Origin: Arthrobacter sp. QXT-31
GTDB lineage: Bacteria > Actinomycetota > Actinomycetes > Actinomycetales > Micrococcaceae
Assembly: GCF_001969265.1 (NCBI RefSeq)
Contig: NZ_CP019304.1
Coordinates: forward strand, 4,960,001-5,024,000
Length of the DNA stretch: 64,000 nt
Direction: 5' to 3'
The notes beneath the pieces were generated by a model that had not been told where the DNA came from, ran no database searches, and saw only the letters and a list, made by a program, of their open reading frames with translations. Position 1 is the stretch's first letter. Each line of letters begins with the position of its first letter. A program made the translations under genes and the position numbers. Shown piece by piece: positions 43,414 through 63,795 of the stretch.

Positions 43414-43560
43414 ATGGCTGACAAGTCCCCCCGCCAAGCAGCATCCAAGAAATCCGACAAAACCATCAAGCAAAAACGCGCCGACAAGAAGGCCGCCGCG
43501 GCAGCCTCCAGTTCAGGAGACAAGGCCACCGCGGCCAAGGCGACGAGCCCTAAAAAGTGA
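43414..43560 (+). CDS. Small lysine/alanine-rich protein
   Basis: A 48-residue basic protein (MADKSPRQAASKKSDKTI...) made almost only of Lys, Ala, Ser and Asp. AGGAG lies 6 bases before the ATG. The stop overlaps the next start as GTGA, so the two are translationally coupled. Similar short basic proteins are widespread in actinobacteria and unassigned. Confidence 0.75.
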   Translation: MADKSPRQAASKKSDKTIKQKRADKKAAAAASSSGDKATAAKATSPKK

Positions 43561-44716
43561 GTGTTTTGACAGATCACCTCACCCTCGGCGTGCTTTCCAG
43601 CACCAGAAAACCTGACGAGCAGCGCCTTCCGATACATCCCCTGCACCTGAAGCGCGTTGCCCCTGAAATCCGGCAGCACCTGATTTTGGAAGAAGGCTAC
43701 GGGGAGCGTTTCGGCGTTCGGGAATCCGATCTCGCACCACTTGTGGGGCGCATCGTCCCGCGCGAGCAACTGCTGGCGGAGGCCGACGTCGTTCTTCTGC
43801 CCAAACCGCAACCCGAAGACCTTGCCGAACTCCGCGACGGGCAGGTCCTATGGGGTTGGCCGCACTGCGTCCAGGACCGGGCCATCACCCAGCTGGCAAT
43901 CGATAAGAAACTCACGCTGATTGCCTTCGAGGCGATGAACCACTGGGCCAGCGACGGCGGCTTTGGCCTGCACGTGTTCCACAAGAACAACGAACTGGCC
44001 GGCTACTGCTCGGTGCTGCACTCCCTGGCCCTGACCGGCTCCACCGGGGACTACGGCAGGAGGCTGAGCGCCGTCGTCATCGGCTTCGGCGCGACGGCGC
44101 GCGGGGCCGTCACCGCCCTCAACGCCCACGGCATCCATGACGTCCAGGTCCTGACCAACCGGAGCGTGGCCGCCGTGGGTTCGCCCATCCATTCGGTACG
44201 GATTGCCCAGTTCGATCACGACGACAAAGCACCATTCCTCAGCGAGGTCATCACCGAACGCGGACGGGTACCGCTGGCGCCGTTCCTGGCCGAAAGCGAC
44301 ATCGTGGTCAACTGCACGCTGCAGGACCCCAACGCACCATTGACCTACCTCCGCACCGAGGACCTGGACGCTTTCCGGCCCGGCAGCCTGATCGTGGATG
44401 TTTCCTGCGATGAGGGATGGGATTCAGCTGGGCGAAGACCACCACGTTCGCCGAGCCGATGTTCACGGTCGGGGACCACATCGACTACTACGCAGTGGAC
44501 CATAGCCCCTCCTACCTCTGGAATTCCTCCACTTGGGAGATCAGCGAGGCCCTGCTGCCCTTCCTGGAAACGGTCATCACCGGTCCCACTGCCTGGACCG
44601 GAAACGACACCATCAGCCGCGCCATCGAAATCCGCGAGGGCGTGGTCCTGAACCAGGACGTGCTGCGGTTCCAGCAGCGGGAACCGCAGCACCCGCACTT
44701 CCCATTGCCCGCCTAA
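43557..44716 (+). pseudogene. N5-(carboxyethyl)ornithine synthase-like dehydrogenase, frameshifted
   Basis: The first 285 codons from GTG 43557 encode an alanine-dehydrogenase/transhydrogenase-fold enzyme: LGVLSSTRKPDEQRLPIHP at the start, EEGYGERFGV, and the NAD site SAVVIGFGATARGAV. At about 44415 one base is lost in GATGAGGGATGGG. The correct continuation (MGFSWAKTTTFAEPMF to PHFPLPA) is in the next frame and ends at 44716. Unless the base is a sequencing artefact, the enzyme loses its last 100 residues. It is coupled to the small basic gene before it. Confidence 0.82.
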
Positions 44717-48021: not shown

Positions 48022-49141
48022 ATGGGTGTTCCGATCACCACCACCGTCCCCAGTCCCTCCCTCCTGCCCGCTCGCGGGCCTCACGCCTACTCAGGCGCGC
48101 AGGCGTTCCCTGTGCTGACCAAGGCGTACCTCCAGCTCTCCCAACAGGTCCGCGAGACGGGCCTGCTGCGCCGGACTCCGTGGTTCTACGCCCTTGTCGG
48201 CGGCGTTCTTGCCATCGGGATCGCCGGCTGTGCCGCCTTGTCGGTTCTGCTCGGGCCGAGCTGGTTCCAGCTATTGATCGCCGCCGCGCTCGGAATTCTG
48301 TTCACGCAAGTGCCTTTCTCGCGCACGAGGCAGGGCACCGCCAAATCCTGGCAGGGGGGCCGGCCAACGACGTGCTCGCCCGCTTTCTGGGCGCTGTGGC
48401 GGGGATGAGCTATTCGTGGTGGGACTCGAAGCACTCCCGCCACCACGCGAACCCCAACAAGGTAGGCCGCGACCCCGACATCGAGGTGGACACGATCTCT
48501 TTCCTCCACGTGGACGCGGCGAAAGCCAGGGGCATTCGTGCCCTGGTCACCCGCCGTCAGGGCTGGCTGTTCTTCCCGCTGCTGACACTGGAGGGCCTGA
48601 ATCTGCACTATCTCAGCCTTCGCCACCTGCTCTCCCGAGGACCGGTCAAGGGCCGCAGGTCGAGCTTGGCCTGCTGGCGCTGCGCTTCGCCGCTGTCCTC
48701 CTGCCGCTCTTCTGCTGCTCCCGCCCGGCATGGCGTTAGCGTTCCTTGGAGTCCAGCTGGGAGTTTTCGGCCTGTACATGGGCGCGACGTTTGCCCCCAA
48801 CCACAAGGGCATGCCTGTGATCGACCGGGATGTGAAGCTTGACTTCTTCTCCAAGACAGGTGCGCACGTCACGGAACATCTCCGGAGGTTGGTGGGCCAC
48901 GTGGCTCATGGGCGGTCTGAACTACCAGGTGGAGCACCACCTCTTTCCGAGCATGCCGCGCCCGCACCTGGCCAAAGCCCGCCGGCTTGTGCGTGAGCAG
49001 TGCACCCGGCTTTCGGTTCCCTACACCGAAACCAGCATCTGGAGCTCGTACGGCACCGTAATCACCTACCTGAACAGGGTGGGCCTCGCCGCGCGCGACC
49101 CCTTCGAGTGCCCCATGACCGCCCAGTACAGGCGCAGGTAG
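48022..49141 (+). pseudogene. Fatty acid (acyl-lipid/acyl-CoA) desaturase, multiply frameshifted
   Basis: All three histidine boxes are present but in different frames: HEAGH near 48327, HSRHHANPN near 48435 and QVEHHLFP near 48930. The path needs shifts at about 48305 (N-terminal membrane part to first box), about 48655, about 48720 and about 48860 (to the last 90 residues, ending at PMTAQYRRR). The third box with Gln is typical of front-end/linoleoyl-CoA-type desaturases. Four indels mean a dead gene unless the sequence is faulty. Confidence 0.85.
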
Positions 49142-51431: not shown

Positions 51432-52823
51432 TTAGACGAATTGGTACAGCAGCGCCGCCATTGCGAAGCCCACGATGGACAGGACAGTTTCGAGCACTGT
51501 CCAGGTCTTCAGGGTGTCCTTGACGGACATGTTGAAGTACTTGGAGATGATCCAGAAGCCGCCGTCGTTGACGTGGCTGGCGATGATGGAGCCGGAGGAG
51601 ATGGCGATGGCGATCAGGGCCAGCTGCGGCTGGGAGTAGTCCCCGGAGGTCAACTCGGGGGCGAGGATGCCGCCGGTGGTGACGATGGCCACGGTAGCAG
51701 ACCCTTGGGCTACCCGCATTCCGCAGGCGATCACGTAGGCGGCAAGGATGAGCGGCAGACCGGCCGCTGAGAGCGTTTCGGCCACGGCCGCGCCTACGCC
51801 GGTGGCCGAAAGCACGGCACCGAAGAACGCGCCCGCGCCGACTACGAGCAGGATCATGCCTACGGGCTTCAGGGAGGCCGAGCTAAGGTCGGAAAGGTCC
51901 TGGACGGTCATGCCGCGCCGGATGCCCAGCAGCCACATGGATAGTACGACGGCAACGGTCAAAGCGATGGCAGGGTTGCCAAAGAAGATCAGGACATCGC
52001 GGAATGTTCCCGCTGGCAGGAAGACGTTTCCGAAAGTGGCGCCGAGGATAAGGATCATGGGAAGGCCAATGGCGAGGGCGACCAGGCCGATGGACGGTTC
52101 GTGGCCCTTGGCTTCTTCGGCTTCCGGAATCACGCGGTCTTCCGGCACGGCAACGTTCACGCGTTTGCCGATCCAGGTTCCCCACAGGATGCCGGAGGCG
52201 AACCAGGCCGGAATGCCGCAGGCGAGCCCCATAATGATGATCCAGCCCAGCTCGACTTGGAAGAGCCCGGCCGCGGCGACAGGGCCCGGGTGCGGGGGCA
52301 GGAAGGCGTGGGTCACGGACAGCCCGGCAAGCAGCGGCAGAGCGTACAGGGCGAGGGATTTACCGCCGCGGACGGCGGCTACGTAGACAAGCGGGGCGAG
52401 GACGAAGATGCCGATGTCGAAGAAGACCGGGATGCCGAGAACGAAACCGGTGATGCCCATCGCGAGCGGCGTGCCCTTCTCGCCGAAGACTTTCACGAGC
52501 TTGCCGAGCAGCACCTCCGCGCCGCCGGAGCGTTCCAGGATAGCGCCCAGCACGGTACCCAGGCCGATAATCAGGGTGATGTGGCCGAGGATTCCGGCGA
52601 AGCCCTTTTCTATGAGGGCGTCACCGCTCTTAACGGGTGAACCTACCAGCGCCTCCACGGTGACCCCGCCCACGAGTGCCACGAGGACGCTGGTGGCCAC
52701 CAGGGCGATGAACGGTTCGATCTTGACCTTGATGATCAGGAACAGCAGGAGCGCGATGCCGCTGCCTGCCAGGAGGAGCAGGCCGGCGGTGTCGTGCCGC
52801 AGCCAGTCGATGAATTCATTCAT
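51432..52823 (-). CDS. GntP-family permease (gluconate-type:H+ symporter)
   Basis: A 463-residue protein with about 12-13 membrane helices. The GntP family pattern includes GTVLGAILERSGGAEVL, GFVLGIPVFFDIGIFVLAPL and THAFLPPHPGPVAAAGLF. AAGGAAACTCCC precedes the ATG. It is last in a minus-strand operon with KDPG aldolase, deacylase and D-amino-acid lyase-like genes. Relatives import gluconate, fructuronate or D-serine. In this context an amino- or acetamido-sugar acid is likely. Confidence 0.93.
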   Translation of the reverse strand: MNEFIDWLRHDTAGLLLLAGSGIALLLFLIIKVKIEPFIALVATSVLVALVGGVTVEALVGSPVKSGDALIEKGFAGILGHITLIIGLGTVLGAILERSGGAEVLLGKLVKVFGEKGTPLAMGITGFVLGIPVFFDIGIFVLAPLVYVAAVRGGKSLALYALPLLAGLSVTHAFLPPHPGPVAAAGLFQVELGWIIIMGLACGIPAWFASGILWGTWIGKRVNVAVPEDRVIPEAEEAKGHEPSIGLVALAIGLPMILILGATFGNVFLPAGTFRDVLIFFGNPAIALTVAVVLSMWLLGIRRGMTVQDLSDLSSASLKPVGMILLVVGAGAFFGAVLSATGVGAAVAETLSAAGLPLILAAYVIACGMRVAQGSATVAIVTTGGILAPELTSGDYSQPQLALIAIAISSGSIIASHVNDGGFWIISKYFNMSVKDTLKTWTVLETVLSIVGFAMAALLYQFV

Positions 52824-52846
52824 GGGAGTTTCCTTTCTCGGTAGTC

Positions 52847-53482
52847 CTATTTGAGGGTCCCGGTGAAGGCGGCGGCACGTGCCGCGATCTCGGCCCAGTC
52901 GCCGGCAGCGACGGCTGCGGGCGGGACCACGCTGGTGCCGCAGCAGACTGCGGCGGCGCCGGCGTCGAGGTAGCTCTTGGCGTTGGAGGCATCGATTCCC
53001 CCGGAGGGCAGCAACCGGATGTCCGGGTACGGGCCGCGCAGATCCTTCAGGTATGCCGGGCCGAGCTGCCTGGCGGGGAAGATTTTGACGGCGGCGGAGC
53101 CCAGATCCTGGGCCTGCGCCACCTCCGTGGGAGTCATGGCGCCCAGGCTGAACGGGATGCCTGCGGCGGCGGCGACGGCTGCCACTTCCATTCGGAGCCC
53201 GGGCGTCACCAGGAATTGTGCCCCGGCGTCGATGGCGGCACGGGCTTGGTCGGCGGTCATGACGGTGCCGATCCCGACGGTGGCGCCATGGTCCGCGGCC
53301 GTCTCGGCGGCGCGCCGTACGTGGTTGAGGGCGTCTGGGGTGGTGAACGTCAGTTCCACCGTGCGGATGCCGCCGGAGGACAGTGCCCGGCAGAGCTCGG
53401 CTGCGTCGGTGATGGACGGGGCCCGGACCACCGCGAGGGTGCGGTCGGTCTCCAGTTGATGGACGAGTTCTTCAGGGGTCAT
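52847..53482 (-). CDS. eda: 2-dehydro-3-deoxy-6-phosphogluconate aldolase (KDPG/KHG aldolase)
   Basis: A 211-residue class I aldolase. The catalytic Glu is in TVELTFTTPDAL, the Schiff-base Lys in SAAVKIFPA and the phosphate loop in RLLPSGGID. It cleaves KDPG to pyruvate and glyceraldehyde-3-phosphate. The start overlaps the stop of the deacylase gene by 4 bases. The matching KDG kinase is in the divergent half of the cluster. Confidence 0.93.
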   Translation of the reverse strand: MTPEELVHQLETDRTLAVVRAPSITDAAELCRALSSGGIRTVELTFTTPDALNHVRRAAETAADHGATVGIGTVMTADQARAAIDAGAQFLVTPGLRMEVAAVAAAAGIPFSLGAMTPTEVAQAQDLGSAAVKIFPARQLGPAYLKDLRGPYPDIRLLPSGGIDASNAKSYLDAGAAAVCCGTSVVPPAAVAAGDWAEIAARAAAFTGTLK

Positions 53483-55125
53483 GGGTTGGTGGTGCTTTCT
53501 TCTCGGGTGAGTCCGTCGCTGCTGCGGCGCAGGGCGCGGCCAGCGCGTGCGCCGGTGGGCTGGCCACCGTCGATGGCTGCCACGCCGTTGACGAACACGT
53601 AGTGGATGCCTGTGGCGGCTTGGCGTGGATTCTCGAATGTGGCCTGGTCGCGGACGGTTTCCGGGTCAAAAAGCACGATGTCGGCGGCGTAGCCTTCGCG
53701 GATCAGTCCCCTGCGGTGGAGCTTGAGCCGTGCGGCGGGGCGGCCGGTGAGGTGGTGGACGGTTTCCTCGAGGCTGAGGAGGCCAAGGTCGCGGGAGTAG
53801 TGGCCGAGGTAGCGGGGGAAGGTGCCCCAGGCCCGGGGATGCGGCTTTGCTCCGACGAGCAGCCCGTCGCTTCCTCCGGTGTGGGTGCTGTGTTGCATGA
53901 TGGCCTGGACGTTTTCTTCATGGCCTACGTGCTGCAGGATGCCGGTACCGAGGCGGTCCTCGTGCAGGATCTGTGCGAAGACGTCGAAGGGCTCCTGCTG
54001 CCTCTCCACCGCGATGTCCTTGATCGTCTTTCCGACGTAACCGCTGAGTGCCGGGTTCTGGACGCCGCTGATTTCCAGGGTGTCCCATTCTGCGACCACT
54101 CCATGACAGCCGTCGGATCCATAGATCTCCACGGACTCGCGGATTTTTTCGCGGGTCTCGGGATCGGCCAGGCGTGCCAGGGTGGCCTCGGTACCGCCGG
54201 AGGATGCCCAACTCGGCAGGACCGCAGAGAGTGTGGTGGCACCGGGCAGGTACGGGTAAGTGTCCAGGGTGATATCGACGCCGGCGTCCAGCGCCTCATC
54301 GATCAGGTCCAGTAGCTCGCCGGCGCGGCCCTTGTTCTCGGCGAAATTCATGGTGGCGTGGGAAAGATGCAGCGCGCAGCCGGTGTCCCTGCTGAGCCCG
54401 ATCATCTCCGCATACGCATCGAGCGCGCCTTTGCCGTAGGAGCGGTGGTGGGGTGCGTAGAAGCCGCCAAGCTCGCCAACGGTGCGGCAGAGCCCGGCGA
54501 GTTCCTCAGTTTGGGCGTACATTCCAGGGGTGTACGTGAGCCCTGAGGACATGCCCACGGCTCCTTCCTCCATCGCAGTGCGGACCACATCCTGCATGCG
54601 CTGCTGTTGTTCAGGTGTGGGATCCCCGGCTTCAAAGCCCATCACCAGTGCGCGCACGGTTCCCTGCGGTACGAGGTAGGCGGCGTTGGTGGCGATGCGG
54701 CCATCGTTTTGGGGTTCGTCAAGGCGGTCGAGGTATTCGCGCACGGTCCGCCAGTTCCAGTCGAAGTCGGCCGGGTTGTCGTTCCAGCCGGCTATTTTCT
54801 CGCGGACCCCGGCGAGCGTGGTGTCATCGACCGGGGCGTAGGACAGGCCGTCCTGTCCCAGCAGTTCCGTGGTGACTCCCTGGCTCAGCTTGGCGTAATG
54901 GTCCCTGTTCAGCAGCAGCTGCAGGTCAGAATGTGCGTGCATGTCGATGAAGCCGGGGCTAAGGACAAGACCGCTGGCCTCTATGGTGCGGTCAGCGCCG
55001 GAGGCGGTGAGGGAACCGGCCTCGGCCACGGCGGTGATGACCGGACCGTCCAGCAGGACGTCCGCGGCGCGGCGGTCCGCGCCCGTGCCATCGATCAGTG
55101 TGGCGTTGCTGATGAGGATCTTCAT
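53479..55125 (-). CDS. N-acyl-D-amino-acid deacylase family amidohydrolase
   Basis: A 548-residue amidohydrolase. The metal motif GFIDMHAHSDLQ is near residues 58-69. GLTYTPGMYAQTEEL, HHRSYGKGALDAYAE and the GGSDGLLVGAKPHPRAWGT block are typical of D-aminoacylase/D-glutamate deacylase proteins. AGGA of the start overlaps the stop of the preceding gene. Placed with KDG kinase and KDPG aldolase, it more likely removes acetyl from N-acetyl-D-glucosaminate than from an amino acid; this is inference. Confidence 0.9.
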   Translation of the reverse strand: MKILISNATLIDGTGADRRAADVLLDGPVITAVAEAGSLTASGADRTIEASGLVLSPGFIDMHAHSDLQLLLNRDHYAKLSQGVTTELLGQDGLSYAPVDDTTLAGVREKIAGWNDNPADFDWNWRTVREYLDRLDEPQNDGRIATNAAYLVPQGTVRALVMGFEAGDPTPEQQQRMQDVVRTAMEEGAVGMSSGLTYTPGMYAQTEELAGLCRTVGELGGFYAPHHRSYGKGALDAYAEMIGLSRDTGCALHLSHATMNFAENKGRAGELLDLIDEALDAGVDITLDTYPYLPGATTLSAVLPSWASSGGTEATLARLADPETREKIRESVEIYGSDGCHGVVAEWDTLEISGVQNPALSGYVGKTIKDIAVERQQEPFDVFAQILHEDRLGTGILQHVGHEENVQAIMQHSTHTGGSDGLLVGAKPHPRAWGTFPRYLGHYSRDLGLLSLEETVHHLTGRPAARLKLHRRGLIREGYAADIVLFDPETVRDQATFENPRQAATGIHYVFVNGVAAIDGGQPTGARAGRALRRSSDGLTREESTTNP

Positions 55126-55132
55126 GGCGTTC

Positions 55133-56467
55133 CTAGAAGAAGGTGTGGATGAGGTCGGCTACGGACTGGTCACCGTTCGTGTCCGCGAGGACCGGAATGA
55201 TGGTCCATTTATCGAAGGCCGTGCAGGGGTGCGAGAGGCCCAGCCGCACGACGTCGCCCGGGCGCACGCTGGTGCTTTCGGCGTCGAAGGTCATGAAGCA
55301 GTGCTGGTCGTTGACGGAGGTGATCTCCGCTCCGGTGAGCGGCTCCATCGCACCGCCCAGCACCGGCCCGATGAGCTGGGGCCGGGGCAGCCCTTCATCG
55401 AAAGGCAGGTCGCGTTTGCCGGCGTCGAGGATCGCCAGGCCGGGCTCCGGCTGCGAGACAACCCGCGCCCAGCCATGCATCCCGGCCCTGAAAGGATCAC
55501 CGCCATCGCGGGAGAAGGGCGAGATTCCGCGGTAGAAGCCGTCATCATGAATGATGTACGCGCCGCTGCGGATCATGACGTCGACCCGGGGACCGCCGTC
55601 CGACTGCTCAACAATGCACGGGGCAAGGACGGACACGACATCGTCAAAGTAGGCGCTTCCGCCTGCGGTGACGATGACCGACTCGGCCCCGTAGAGGCCC
55701 TCAGCGTGCAGTCGCTCGTGAAGCAGCCGCATCTGGGCGAGGTAACCGCGGACGGCGGCGAGGCCGGCGTCGTCAGCGGTGTGGGCGAGCGAGCCTTCAT
55801 ACCCGCTGACACCAACCAACCGCAGGTGCTTTGAGTCGGCAATGGCGCGGGCCACGGCCACGGCTTCCTCGACTGAACGGGCACCGGTGCGGCCGCCCGG
55901 CGCGCCGAGTTCGACCAGGACATCCAGGACGGCCTGGCCGCTAGCCAGCGTCCTGTTAAGGACCTCGACTGTGCCGGCAGAATCCACCCACGAAAGGATC
56001 GGTTCTTCGGCGCTGGTGTGGGCGGCGACCCACTCGATGGCATGCGGATCGGTGAGGGAGTTGGCCAGCTGCAGCCGCCGCACGCCGAATTGGCGCGCGA
56101 CGCGAAGCTGCGCGAAATTGGCCAGCGTGATGCCCCAGGCGCCCCGGTTAAGCTGTTCGGCCCACAGTTGCGGAGCCATGGTCGTCTTGCCGTGGGGCGC
56201 CAGCAACACGCCGTGCTCCCAGCACCACGAGGCGAGTCGATCGGCATTGCCACGGATGGCGCCTGCGTCAAGGGTGAGCAGCGGTGTCTGCAGATCGGCC
56301 AGCGTATGGCCGGAAGCGACGAAACCGGTGTGTGTGGTCCCGCTCGCGGTGGCGGGCACGGCCTTATGCCGCCAGTCCAACCGGACCTCTGTCAAGGCTG
56401 CCACGGACGCGGCTGAAATGGCCGGAGCCGTTGTGTCTGCGCCGGACGCGGAAGTGTTCACGGGCAT
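55133..56467 (-). CDS. PLP-dependent D-serine-dehydratase-like / amino acid deaminase
   Basis: A 444-residue fold-type III PLP enzyme. PLP Lys is in LLAPHGKTTMAP (near residue 98). The DSD1-like zinc-binding C-terminus includes RPGDVVRLGLSHPCTAFDKW. Family members act as D-serine dehydratase, D-threonine aldolase or deaminate other D-configured amino acids. D-glucosaminate is also a D-2-amino acid, and its deamination gives KDG. AAGGGA is very close to ATG 56467, so the exact start is uncertain. First gene of the minus-strand half. Confidence 0.88.
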   Translation of the reverse strand: MPVNTSASGADTTAPAISAASVAALTEVRLDWRHKAVPATASGTTHTGFVASGHTLADLQTPLLTLDAGAIRGNADRLASWCWEHGVLLAPHGKTTMAPQLWAEQLNRGAWGITLANFAQLRVARQFGVRRLQLANSLTDPHAIEWVAAHTSAEEPILSWVDSAGTVEVLNRTLASGQAVLDVLVELGAPGGRTGARSVEEAVAVARAIADSKHLRLVGVSGYEGSLAHTADDAGLAAVRGYLAQMRLLHERLHAEGLYGAESVIVTAGGSAYFDDVVSVLAPCIVEQSDGGPRVDVMIRSGAYIIHDDGFYRGISPFSRDGGDPFRAGMHGWARVVSQPEPGLAILDAGKRDLPFDEGLPRPQLIGPVLGGAMEPLTGAEITSVNDQHCFMTFDAESTSVRPGDVVRLGLSHPCTAFDKWTIIPVLADTNGDQSVADLIHTFF

Positions 56468-56528
56468 TCCCTTCGCGGTGCTGCGCTTTTGAAGCTGCGC
56501 TGTGGGCGGGATCTTGGTGATTGCGTAT

Positions 56529-56548
56529 TTTGCAACGCTGGTTGCAAA
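56529..56548. promoter_or_regulatory. Inverted-repeat operator in the divergent promoter
   Basis: TTTGCAAC-GCTG-GTTGCAAA, perfect 8-base arms, between the PLP enzyme and KDG kinase genes. It is the likely target of the IclR regulator at 57719 and could control both directions. Confidence 0.65.
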
Positions 56549-56693
56549 TCTGTTGCTGTTATGTCTAACATGGTGCCGGATCGAGAGTCAAGGCCGCGGT
56601 ATACCCGCAGAGCCACTCAAACCGCCACGGACCCCTTCCGGACCGTGGCGCCGGAAAGCCGCTGGAAAGCGCACAAGTAGGTACGGGAGTTAC

Positions 56694-57722
56694 ATGCTGT
56701 CTGCTGTATGTCTTGGCGAGACAATGGCCATGCTGACGCCTGCCCAAGCCGTTCCCCTGCACCAGGCCACCGAGCTGCACTGCGGGATTGGCGGGGCGGA
56801 GTCGAATGTGGCTATGGGCCTGGCTGCCATGGGCATGGACACCCACTGGATTGGGCGGGTGGGCCGTGACGGCTTCGGCACCCGCATCCTCCGCGAACTC
56901 GAGGATCACGGAGTGGGGGTTTCCGGAGTCGAGGTCGATGACTTCCTGCCCACTGGGCTTTACGTGAAGGTGCCGGCCCAGGACTCCGATCCCCATGGCG
57001 GCAGTTCCGTCCTGTACTACCGGCAAGGGAGTGCGGCTTCAGCCATGGGACCTGCCATGCTGGGTAATCCGGCAGTGTCTTCGCTGCTGGATAATGCCGC
57101 CCTGATCCACCTGAGCGGCATTACTGCCGCCCTCTCCCCCGAGTGCCTGGAACTGGTCGAGACTGTTCTCACTGAACCCCGGGACGGCGGGCTTATCAGC
57201 TTCGACGTGAACTGGCGCGCAGCATTGTGGGCCGGCCGTGACCGTTCGGTCCTGCAGCGTCTGGCGAACCTGGCCGACATCGTGCTGGTTGGTAAAGATG
57301 AAGCCGGGAACGCCTTCGGCACCACAGACGAAGCCGAGCTGCGCAGCATGCTGCCGGACCCCGAAGTGCTGGTCATCAAGAACGAGGCGATCAGCGCCAT
57401 CGCCCTCACGCGCGGAGACTCTGCCGGGGACGGCACCAGGGAAGAGGTGCCCGCACTCTCCGTCGCCGTCGTCGAGCCTGTGGGTGCCGGCGACTCATTC
57501 GCCGCCGGCTACCTCAGCGGTATGCTTTTCGGCCTGGGCCAGAAGGCGAGTCTTCGCAGGGGTCACGTCGCGGCGGCGTGTACGCTCACTGTGCACGGGG
57601 ACCGCGGTCCCCTGCCCGACGCGGCCCAGCTCTCGTCCATCCTGAATTCTGCAGATGAGGACTGGACTGCCATCCATGTTGAAGACGGACAATTTCACCA
57701 GCACCGGAGCGTGACACCGTGA
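56694..57722 (+). CDS. kdgK: PfkB-family sugar kinase, 2-keto-3-deoxygluconate kinase type
   Basis: A 342-residue ribokinase-fold enzyme. CLGETMAMLTP at the start is typical of KDG kinases, followed by GIGGAESNVAMGLAAMG. The anion hole and base motif is VEPVGAGDSFAAGYLSG with Asp near residue 267. ATG 56694 has GGGAG upstream (the frame is open to 56502, rejected). It makes KDPG, the substrate of the aldolase at 52847. It overlaps the IclR gene by 4 bases. Confidence 0.9.
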   Translation: MLSAVCLGETMAMLTPAQAVPLHQATELHCGIGGAESNVAMGLAAMGMDTHWIGRVGRDGFGTRILRELEDHGVGVSGVEVDDFLPTGLYVKVPAQDSDPHGGSSVLYYRQGSAASAMGPAMLGNPAVSSLLDNAALIHLSGITAALSPECLELVETVLTEPRDGGLISFDVNWRAALWAGRDRSVLQRLANLADIVLVGKDEAGNAFGTTDEAELRSMLPDPEVLVIKNEAISAIALTRGDSAGDGTREEVPALSVAVVEPVGAGDSFAAGYLSGMLFGLGQKASLRRGHVAAACTLTVHGDRGPLPDAAQLSSILNSADEDWTAIHVEDGQFHQHRSVTP

Positions 57723-58480
57723 GCCAGAGCCTTCTGCGGGCCCTCGACCTCCTCGCCGAACTGGCAGCCAAGCCAGCGACACTGGATGAGCTCGCTTCCA
57801 GTGCTTCAGTGCACAAGACCACGGTGATGCGCCTCCTGCACGCCCTGGAGGAAAAGCGCTTTGTGGTGCGGGACGAGGAACAGCGGTTCATGCTCGGCTC
57901 CAAACTGTTCGAGCTGTCCTCCCTTGCGCTGGAGCAGCGCGACATCCGCAAGGTCGCCCACCCCCATCTGGCCGAATTCAATGGGCGCACGGGGCACACA
58001 GTGCACCTGGCCGCCTTCGAAGGAAACCAGGTGGTGTACATCGATAAGTTCGAGTCACACCACCCTGTCCGTATGTACTCGCGCATCGGCCTGACTGCTT
58101 CCTTGCACTCAGCCGCTGTATCGAAGGTCCTCCTCGCCGACATGCCGCGCAGCCGGCAGGAAAAGATCGCGGCGGGGCTGGATTACGTGAAAGTTACCGA
58201 GAACACCCTGACCTCCCCGGAAGCCTTGCTGGCCGAATTGGAGCAGGTCAGGATCCAAGGCTGGGCGCTCGACAACGCCGAGCACGAAGCGTTCGTGCAC
58301 TGCATTGCGGCTCCCATCCGCGACGCCAGCGGCGCCGTTGTAGCGGCAGCCTCCTGTTCGGTACCGGTAGTGATGCTCAGCCATGAGGGATTGCTTGAGC
58401 TGCTGCCCGACCTCAAAGCCAGCACCGAGGCCATTTCCCGTGACCTCGGCTGGAACAGCCACGAAAGGAACTCAGCATGA
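57719..58480 (+). CDS. IclR family transcriptional regulator
   Basis: A 253-residue regulator. HTH TLDELASSASVHKTTVMRLLHALEEKRFV, then the effector domain with VVYIDKFESH and SAAVSKVLLADM. It starts at GTG 57719, overlapping the kinase stop (GTGA). It is co-transcribed with KDG kinase and RidA; the TTTGCAAC inverted repeat at 56529 is the probable binding site. Many IclR regulators sense KDG or related keto acids. Confidence 0.92.
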   Translation: MSQSLLRALDLLAELAAKPATLDELASSASVHKTTVMRLLHALEEKRFVVRDEEQRFMLGSKLFELSSLALEQRDIRKVAHPHLAEFNGRTGHTVHLAAFEGNQVVYIDKFESHHPVRMYSRIGLTASLHSAAVSKVLLADMPRSRQEKIAAGLDYVKVTENTLTSPEALLAELEQVRIQGWALDNAEHEAFVHCIAAPIRDASGAVVAAASCSVPVVMLSHEGLLELLPDLKASTEAISRDLGWNSHERNSA

Positions 58481-58881
58481 CTGAAAAGACCGTAGTACTG
58501 ACCGAAAACGCCCCTGCCCCGGCGCACGTATTCTCGCAGGGAATCAAAAAAGGCGGGTTCTTCCAGGTCTCCGGCCAGGGTCCGATGGATCCGGCCACCA
58601 ACCAATACATTGGCGAGGGCGACGTCCGTGTCCAGACACGCCGCACCCTGGAAAACGTGAAAGCCATCCTCGAAGCCGGTGGCTCCTCAATGGAAGACGT
58701 CCTCATGTTCCGGGTCTACCTCACCACCCGTGACGACTTCTCCGCGATGAATGAAGTCTACGGCGAGTTCATCCGCGAAAACATCCCCAGCGGCGCTCTC
58801 CCCAGCCGAACCACCGTGTTCGTCGACCTCCCCCACGAAGTCATGCTGGTAGAAATCGATGCTTTGGCAGTCACCGCCTAA
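58477..58881 (+). CDS. ridA: RidA family enamine/imine deaminase
   Basis: A 134-residue YjgF/YER057c protein. The active-site Arg is in LPSRTTVFVDLP, and EIDALAV closes the family signature. RidA hydrolyses enamine/imine intermediates made by PLP dehydratases. Its ATGA overlap with the iclR gene and presence of a PLP lyase in the same cluster make that role very plausible here. Confidence 0.93.
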   Translation: MTEKTVVLTENAPAPAHVFSQGIKKGGFFQVSGQGPMDPATNQYIGEGDVRVQTRRTLENVKAILEAGGSSMEDVLMFRVYLTTRDDFSAMNEVYGEFIRENIPSGALPSRTTVFVDLPHEVMLVEIDALAVTA

Positions 58882-60947: not shown

Positions 60948-60975
60948 CCTTTGTTGATGATCAAGGAGGTATGTG

Positions 60976-61401
60976 ATGTTGATGATGAGCGATCCGTTCC
61001 GGCAGCTGGACCGGCTGACCCAGCAGGTGCTGGGCACTGCGGCGCACCCGGCGGCGATGCCCCTGGATGCCTGGCGGGAAGAGAACGAGTTCGTCGTCGC
61101 GGTGGACCTGCCGGGCGTGGACGTGAACTCGATCGATCTGGATGTTGAGCGGAACGTCCTGACCATCCGGGCTGAGCGGAAGAACGGCGCCCCGGAAGGT
61201 GCTGAGCTGGTGGCCGGTGAGCGGCCGCAGGGTGTCTTTAGCCGGCAGTTGGTGCTCGGTGAGGCGCTGGATGCGGACAACGTGAAGGCCGGGTACGACG
61301 CCGGGGTGCTGACCCTGCGGATCCCGGTCGCTCCCAAGGCACAGCCGCGGAAGATTGAGATCACCAGCGGCCAGGATGCCCAGCAGCAGATCAGCGCCTA
61401 G
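60976..61401 (+). CDS. Hsp20/alpha-crystallin small heat shock protein
   Basis: A 141-residue ATP-independent chaperone. The alpha-crystallin domain runs from [18 protein letters not shown] to the strand [10 protein letters not shown] (about residues 35-125), with the C-terminal anchoring [11 protein letters not shown] 60976 is chosen over GTG 60973 because AAGGAGGT ends 5 bases before it. About three quarters identical in the core blocks to the Hsp20 at 63370. The cluster of heat-shock genes implies HspR control. Confidence 0.93.
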
Positions 61402-63369: not shown

Positions 63370-63795
63370 CTATGATGCAATCTGCTGTTGCTGGCCCTTG
63401 CTTTCGATCTCGATCTTCCGGGGCTTGGCCTGCTCGGCGACCGGGATGCGCAGTGTCAGCACGCCGGCGTCGTAGCTGGCCTTGATGTTCTCGGTATCCA
63501 GGGTGTCGCCGAGAATGAGCTGCCGGCTGAAGACACCGCGCGGCCGCTCGGAAACCACCAGCTCAACATTGGGCTGGGTGGCGTCACGGCGTTCGGCCCG
63601 GACAGTCAGGACGTTGCGTTCAACGTTCAGATCGACGGCGTCCGGGGAGATTCCGGGCAGGTCGAACGCCACCACAAATTCCCCGTCTTCCTGCCACGCG
63701 TCCATCGGCATGGCGGCCGGACGGGCTGCTGTTCCGAAGACCTGCTGTGTGAGCCGATCCAGCTCACGGAACGGGTCAGTACGGATCAACATCAT
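63370..63795 (-). CDS. Hsp20/alpha-crystallin small heat shock protein
   Basis: A 141-residue paralogue of the protein at 60976. The alpha-crystallin domain has [32 protein letters not shown] and [12 protein letters not shown], ending [16 protein letters not shown] lies before the ATG 63795. Divergent from the HspR-like gene; the promoter region has a copy of the hsp20 element and a large inverted repeat. Confidence 0.93.

Follow-up and report, generated by a model that had tools for sequence, protein, structure and literature searches.

A divergent seven-gene cluster of Arthrobacter sp. QXT-31 as a candidate operon pair for catabolism of an N-acetylated, C1-oxidised hexosamine

We analysed a 64,000-nucleotide stretch of Arthrobacter sp. 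QXT-31 (the window; contig NZ_CP019304.1, positions 4,960,001 to 5,024,000), taken from a genome assembled as a single 5.04 Mb contig (99.99% complete), and describe a seven-gene cluster with a candidate role in the breakdown of N-acetyl-D-glucosaminate (GlcNAc1A). Four genes are on the reverse strand: a GntP-family permease, the candidate aldosaminate importer (51432-52823; PF02447, E=1.3e-121; TIGR00791 above cut-off); an Eda-type 2-keto-3-deoxy-6-phosphogluconate/2-keto-4-hydroxyglutarate (KDPG/KHG) aldolase (52847-53482; PF01081, E=1.1e-44; TIGR01182 above cut-off); an Amidohydro_3 protein with a GQDG motif, the candidate N-acetyl-aldosaminate deacylase (53479-55125; PF07969, E=4.2e-41); and a fold-type III pyridoxal-phosphate (PLP) enzyme of the DSD1/OngC family, the candidate D-glucosaminate ammonia-lyase (dehydratase) (55133-56467; PF14031, D-ser_dehydrat, and PF01168, Ala_racemase_N). 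Three genes are on the forward strand: a PfkB kinase, the candidate 2-keto-3-deoxygluconate (KDG) kinase (56694-57722; PF00294, E=4.4e-46); an IclR-family regulator (57719-58480; PF01614, E=3.2e-49), whose top NCBIfam matches, KdgR and BhcR, fall under their cut-offs; and a RidA-family protein (58477-58881; PF01042, E=1e-29). Pfam and NCBIfam searches thus confirmed the seven families and the divergent, packed arrangement given in a preliminary description made from the sequence; its several 4-base overlaps number three (aldolase/amidohydrolase, kinase/IclR, and IclR/RidA).

The arrangement and its operator recur at many loci of Actinomycetes, including many soil actinobacteria. An orthologue with at least 66% identity occurs in 16 of the 149 Micrococcaceae genomes sampled, QXT-31 included, and more distant relatives (34-43% identity) are also present. 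Leaving QXT-31 aside, 15 Micrococcaceae loci contain the orthologue, and 13 of them have all seven genes in identical layout, including one whose amidohydrolase gene is divided between two frames; of the two incomplete loci, one has a GntP only 31% identical, and the other has no GntP within the stretch. Among 80 further loci (the best 80 out of 566; contig ends truncate some of them, and they partly overlap with our other locus sets), the PLP gene is present in 79, the RidA gene in 76, the kinase and IclR genes in 73 each, the GntP gene in 63, and the aldolase gene in 52; 37 loci hold all seven. Because the layout recurs to this extent in both sets, the seven-gene combination is not a chance association. 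Tsukamurella has a complete cluster; three genomes of a single family (f4, presumed to be Streptomyces) have no aldolase beside the cluster, and one of these also lacks GntP. A second, co-directional layout (RidA-PLP enzyme-amidohydrolase-kinase-aldolase) is seen in five other Micrococcaceae loci (L097-L101), being partial in L101, on a short contig. A cluster without GntP also occurs in a locus of 68% G+C filed as Sporosarcina beigongshangi, for which contamination or mislabelling seems likelier than transfer.

Between the two divergent arms lies a conserved operator, TTGCGTATTTTGCAACGCTGGTTGC (56521-56545, forward strand), the presumed IclR site, which is present as a single site per cluster in 21 out of 21 clusters; a TGT[CT]TA[AG]CAT box was counted by eye in 19 of these 21 operator-bearing loci. 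A likely kdgK-iclR-ridA promoter, also read by eye, occupies 56542-56571 on the forward strand (-35 TTGCAA at 56542-56547, -10 TAACAT at 56566-56571, 18 bases apart). The open reading frame (ORF) of the kinase was listed from a GTG at 56502; since the stretch from there to the ATG at 56694 holds both the operator and the -35/-10 pair, the kinase probably starts at the ATG, with the listed frame beginning inside the promoter. A TTGCRYANNNYGCAAYNNNNRTTGC-like element was found once per cluster in the 21 clusters first examined, at least once in 75 of the 80 loci, and in 8 of the 20 class-level loci, which are more distant. In the QXT-31 genome the operator consensus has one match at zero mismatches, the cluster site itself; at up to three mismatches there were 27 matches versus 48 for a reversed control, so we used only the zero-mismatch site. 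We infer from this distribution a dedicated, local regulator of the cluster. A regulon shared with lytic polysaccharide monooxygenase (LPMO) genes was considered and rejected: a position-weight scan of seven LPMO loci (L035-L038, L068, L071, and L073) gave a best score of 14.6 versus 27.4-40.8 for true sites. A loose-pattern match near a solute-binding-protein gene (in L245) was likewise dropped (best score 19.5 versus 23.9 for the lowest true site), and the operator was not found in the four second-layout loci scanned (L097-L100).

The closest described counterpart is the ong cluster of Pseudoalteromonas, in which conversion of GlcNAc1A to KDG-6-phosphate via OngB, OngC, and KdgK was shown experimentally, and in which the RidA gene (OngD) is required for growth (PMC9537276). 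By analogy, the gene set of the window matches these steps plus RidA: like the cluster of P. prydzensis ACAM 620 (PMC9537276), it combines an amidohydrolase deacylase, an OngC-family PLP deaminase, RidA, and a KDG kinase, the last two assigned by family. In contrast to that cluster, the window deacylase belongs to another clade, the Eda gene lies inside the cluster, a GntP permease stands in place of the sodium:solute symporter (SSS) OngIT and an IclR regulator in place of the RpiR regulator OngR, and there is no TonB receptor or in-cluster glycoside hydrolase family 20 (GH20) gene (OngA). The actinobacterial version of the marine route proposed in the preliminary description is thus partly supported: the OngC-family enzyme, RidA, and the kinase agree with the marine set, but the deacylase clade and the transporter and regulator families differ from it, so the cluster is no mere copy of that route. 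For comparison we used two annotated loci, from Pseudoalteromonas sp. CF6-2 and Klebsiella, and three without annotation, from Cupriavidus, P. piscicida, and a Vibrio. Against one ong cluster the window proteins share 29% (amidohydrolase, AmdH), 32% (RidA), and 33% (PLP enzyme) identity; the kinase has no match in the CF6-2 ong locus at 1e-6, although the loci of P. piscicida and Vibrio do contain matches. The plasmid cluster of Cupriavidus campinensis combines GntP, Eda, KdgK-like, OngC-type, and RidA genes, as the window does, with a deacetylase that, unlike the window protein, carries the OngB signature (S290-S292/Q298), and it has no IclR match; thus GntP, Eda, a KdgK-like kinase, and RidA do accompany an OngB-type deacetylase.

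The nearest PDB chain to the PLP enzyme is 3gwq (E=7e-57), which we take to be a Burkholderia "D-serine deaminase". The enzyme shares 36.6% identity with 3gwq and 33.7% (over 404 columns) with CF6-2 OngC, and of eight motif blocks checked against OngC five are strongly conserved (PHGKTTM, GGSAY, GKRD..FD, DQH, and SHPC..FDKW) and three partially. PHGKTTM, DQH, GKRD..FD, and SHPC..FDKW are shared by all of OngC, 3gwq, and the window enzyme. In the tree the window enzyme and OngC form one family, separate from D-threonine aldolase, but the window enzyme falls in a subgroup apart from OngC and 3gwq (several inner forks are weak, long branches were flagged, and one sequence, from L103, was omitted for its long branch); its candidate substrate is D-glucosaminate.

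Relatives of the cluster provide links to N-acetylhexosamines. In two Microbacterium loci (L174 and L175) an amidohydrolase of the window clade and a GH20 beta-N-acetylhexosaminidase form a single in-frame fusion (1103 and 1110 residues); the L174 fusion shares 100% identity with a Microbacterium sp. M28 protein. Both fused copies retain T193, Y226, T254, N256, G290, A291, and T292 of the window protein, and in a search that scored 8000 candidates, both domains were present in all 120 listed of 259 matches to the fusion. An OngC-type PLP gene and a RidA gene adjoin the fusion, followed by two ROK-family genes, one with a helix-turn-helix match; the two would be a regulator and a kinase. GH20 and ATP-binding cassette (ABC) permease genes share the same ~20-kb locus in 12 of the 80 loci (three Arthrobacter and nine Amycolatopsis). 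A GH20 and IclR pair also adjoins GntP in one genome (G024), and in another (G071, apparently the same contig as locus L188) ~2 kb and two ORFs separate such a pair from RidA. Of 147 loci examined, 11 have a lactonase-type gene next to the cluster (Pfam check on one, L210); nine of these are from Amycolatopsis, in which the gene separates the amidohydrolase from the ABC/GH20 genes. The lactonase-like protein that we read by eye has a twin-arginine-like leader at its start. GlcNAc1A occurs as both lactone and acid (PMC12017989). In a search of open-licence PubMed Central (subscription literature lay outside its scope) we found no paper on the GH20-amidohydrolase fusion or on an actinobacterial ong-type cluster.

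Taken together, gene content, conservation, the operator, enzyme-family membership, and these fusion and neighbourhood links to beta-N-acetylhexosaminidase make it probable, on the strength of sequence comparison, that the seven genes make up two operons which together carry a complete catabolic route for an N-acetylated, C1-oxidised hexosamine, GlcNAc1A being the likeliest; an N-acetylhexosamine acid is favoured because of the GH20 fusion, the GH20/ABC and lactonase neighbours, and the Cupriavidus cluster. GntP would import the aldonic acid, the amidohydrolase would remove acetate to give D-glucosaminate, and elimination of ammonia by the OngC-family enzyme would lead to KDG, RidA disposing of the enamine/imine; phosphorylation of KDG by the PfkB enzyme would follow, and the Eda-type aldolase would yield pyruvate and glyceraldehyde-3-phosphate, while IclR would act at the single operator in the divergent promoter. 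The pathway proposed in the preliminary description thereby gains support, although the deacylase is not an OngB.

Several observations weigh against this reading, and we consider them here and in the next three paragraphs. In a 58-row tree, OngB-type proteins group with AfDam and BbDam (100/100), whereas the window amidohydrolase lies outside this OngB/D-aminoacylase clade, in a 25-row clade of its own (100/100). Compared with the active-site residues of OngB (PDB 9KB1/9KB3; PMC12017989), likewise an Amidohydro_3 protein, it retains the HxH pair (His68, His70), two further histidines (His222, His252), Tyr194, Tyr285, the catalytic Asp368, and Arg379. However, the metal ligand Cys97 is replaced by Asp, and the OngB substrate residues Glu226, Lys254, and Ser290-292 by Tyr, Thr, and Gly-Ala-Thr; Ser292 of the OngB signature is thus Thr, and Gln298 falls in an indel region where the alignment is uncertain. 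Close orthologues keep this pattern, although position 291 is Ser or Cys in some of them; at position 254, eight of the more distant class-level amidohydrolases (44-53% identity) have His, and the second-layout Micrococcaceae proteins also have His for Lys254. Since the OngB substrate residues and Cys97 are replaced, the substrate of the window amidohydrolase is not readable from OngB; and since the two are non-orthologous, the Amidohydro_3 family probably supplied an enzyme for GlcNAc1A deacetylation on separate occasions. Asp97 was rejected as a mark of the pathway: relatives in Cetobacterium and Rhodovastum (L118 and L127), which adjoin dpaL and YgeY-type genes, share Asp97 yet retain Glu226 and Lys254, and their context suggests that another pathway uses the Asp-ligand type. 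A single genus (loci L090, L091, L092, and L114) carries relatives of 36-41% identity in which metal and catalytic residues are missing: almost the whole set is gone from L091, L092, and L114, and a part of it from L090. In the former three the gene adjoins an aldolase 62-63% identical to that of the window. These proteins may be dead or repurposed.

The names given to the amidohydrolase family raise the alternative of an N-acyl-D-amino-acid scavenging operon, with deacylation followed by D-serine or D-threonine deamination; OngC itself also acts on D-Ser and D-Thr (PMC9537276), and some relatives of the PLP enzyme adjoin amino-acid ABC transporters. Such an operon would have no need for a KDG kinase or a KDPG aldolase, and the same amidohydrolase type is fused to a beta-N-acetylhexosaminidase. 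Moreover, of the Cys/His/His metal site of D-aminoacylases (subtype V amidohydrolases) both histidines are retained with Asp for Cys97, and of their carboxylate set Tyr285 and Arg379 are kept, but Lys254 is Thr and Ser291 is Ala in the window protein; we regard this alternative as improbable. We give still less credence to a cluster serving free D-glucosaminate or gluconate-type acids, in which the amidohydrolase would remove a different acyl group or act on another amide: GntP is a gluconate-type permease, and the Lys and Ser residues contributing to carboxylate anchoring in OngB are replaced, but amidohydrolase and PLP genes occur together in 79 of the 80 loci, and the GH20 fusion points to an N-acetylhexosamine product.

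The substrate could also be another N-acetyl-aldosaminate, for example N-acetyl-D-galactosaminate, which would be degraded to 2-keto-3-deoxygalactonate (KDGal) by otherwise the same chemistry. GH20 enzymes do not separate gluco from galacto substrates, and neither does the kinase family: the top NCBIfam matches of the window kinase are bifunctional KDG/KDGal kinases, under their cut-offs. A Klebsiella pneumoniae plasmid (pKLP00155_3) combines an OngB-signature deacetylase, RidA, and an SSS transporter with an annotated 2-dehydro-3-deoxygalactonokinase and 2-dehydro-3-deoxy-6-phosphogalactonate (KDPGal) aldolase, and is a possible N-acetylgalactosaminate variant. On the other side, the window aldolase scores above the Eda subfamily cut-off and under that of the KDPGal aldolase model, and a PF01182 (glucosamine-6-phosphate isomerase/6-phosphogluconolactonase) gene lies near one of the two GH20 fusions (L174). 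A galacto substrate is unlikely in our estimation, and GlcNAc1A remains the preferred one.

The genomic context of GlcNAc1A use is uneven as well. No GH20 gene lies in 68 of the 80 loci, including seven of ten from Arthrobacter or Paenarthrobacter; the fusion loci have no KdgK or Eda match; and the position-weight scan found no operator next to the GH20/ABC genes that neighbour the cluster, nor at the fusion loci (which are among the 12 class-level loci without the TTGCRYANNNYGCAAYNNNNRTTGC-like element). The QXT-31 genome has no match to LPMO PF03067, GH18 PF00704, or GH20 PF00728, so the strain would be a scavenger of GlcNAc1A made by others. An association with LPMO, which the preliminary description had suggested looking for, proved to be lineage-driven and was rejected as evidence: of the 74 genomes that carry the amidohydrolase (E<=1e-120), 58 also have LPMO, versus 62 of the 320 that lack it (p=1.3e-21), but a single family (f4) accounts for 38 of these 58, and at the genus level the difference (9/21 versus 31/116, p=0.19) is not significant. 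Within Micrococcaceae, kinship ignored, GH20 occurs in 10 of 16 genomes with the orthologue versus 12 of 133 without, and LPMO in 4 of 16 versus 2 of 133. In three genomes of one genus (g26), LPMO and amidohydrolase genes lie ~19-40 kb apart, too far to count as linked.

With GlcNAc1A as the substrate, the cluster is likely a variant of the ong-type pathway, judged by homology, whose new part is the distinct first enzyme and the GH20 fusion. A published survey placed the ong cluster together with LPMO in Gammaproteobacteria and one Betaproteobacterium, on the condition that four or more genes with over 30% identity to ong genes occur together (PMC9537276); a distinct terrestrial branch would have escaped it, because the window genes lie near or below the 30% line. 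Should the GlcNAc1A reading hold, what becomes of LPMO products among Actinomycetes in soil could be put to the test, and many genes annotated as "D-aminoacylase" would be misnamed. We lean, by a little, towards a wider proposal: that the window amidohydrolase represents a second, non-orthologous family of GlcNAc1A de-N-acetylases with an Asp/His/His metal site; that use of oxidised chitin ends arose twice; that the broad terrestrial actinobacterial branch includes a bifunctional GH20-deacetylase that both frees and deacetylates GlcNAc1A; and that non-chitinolytic scavengers like QXT-31 live on GlcNAc1A from LPMO-bearing neighbours.

Elsewhere in the window, the sole match of a 364-residue ORF (43557-44651) is to the N-terminal domain of alanine dehydrogenase/PNT, and a 100-residue ORF (48839-49141) matches the end of a fatty-acid desaturase; both are perhaps gene remnants. 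Two HSP20-family genes with similar N-termini (60973-61401 and 63370-63795) lie on opposite strands.

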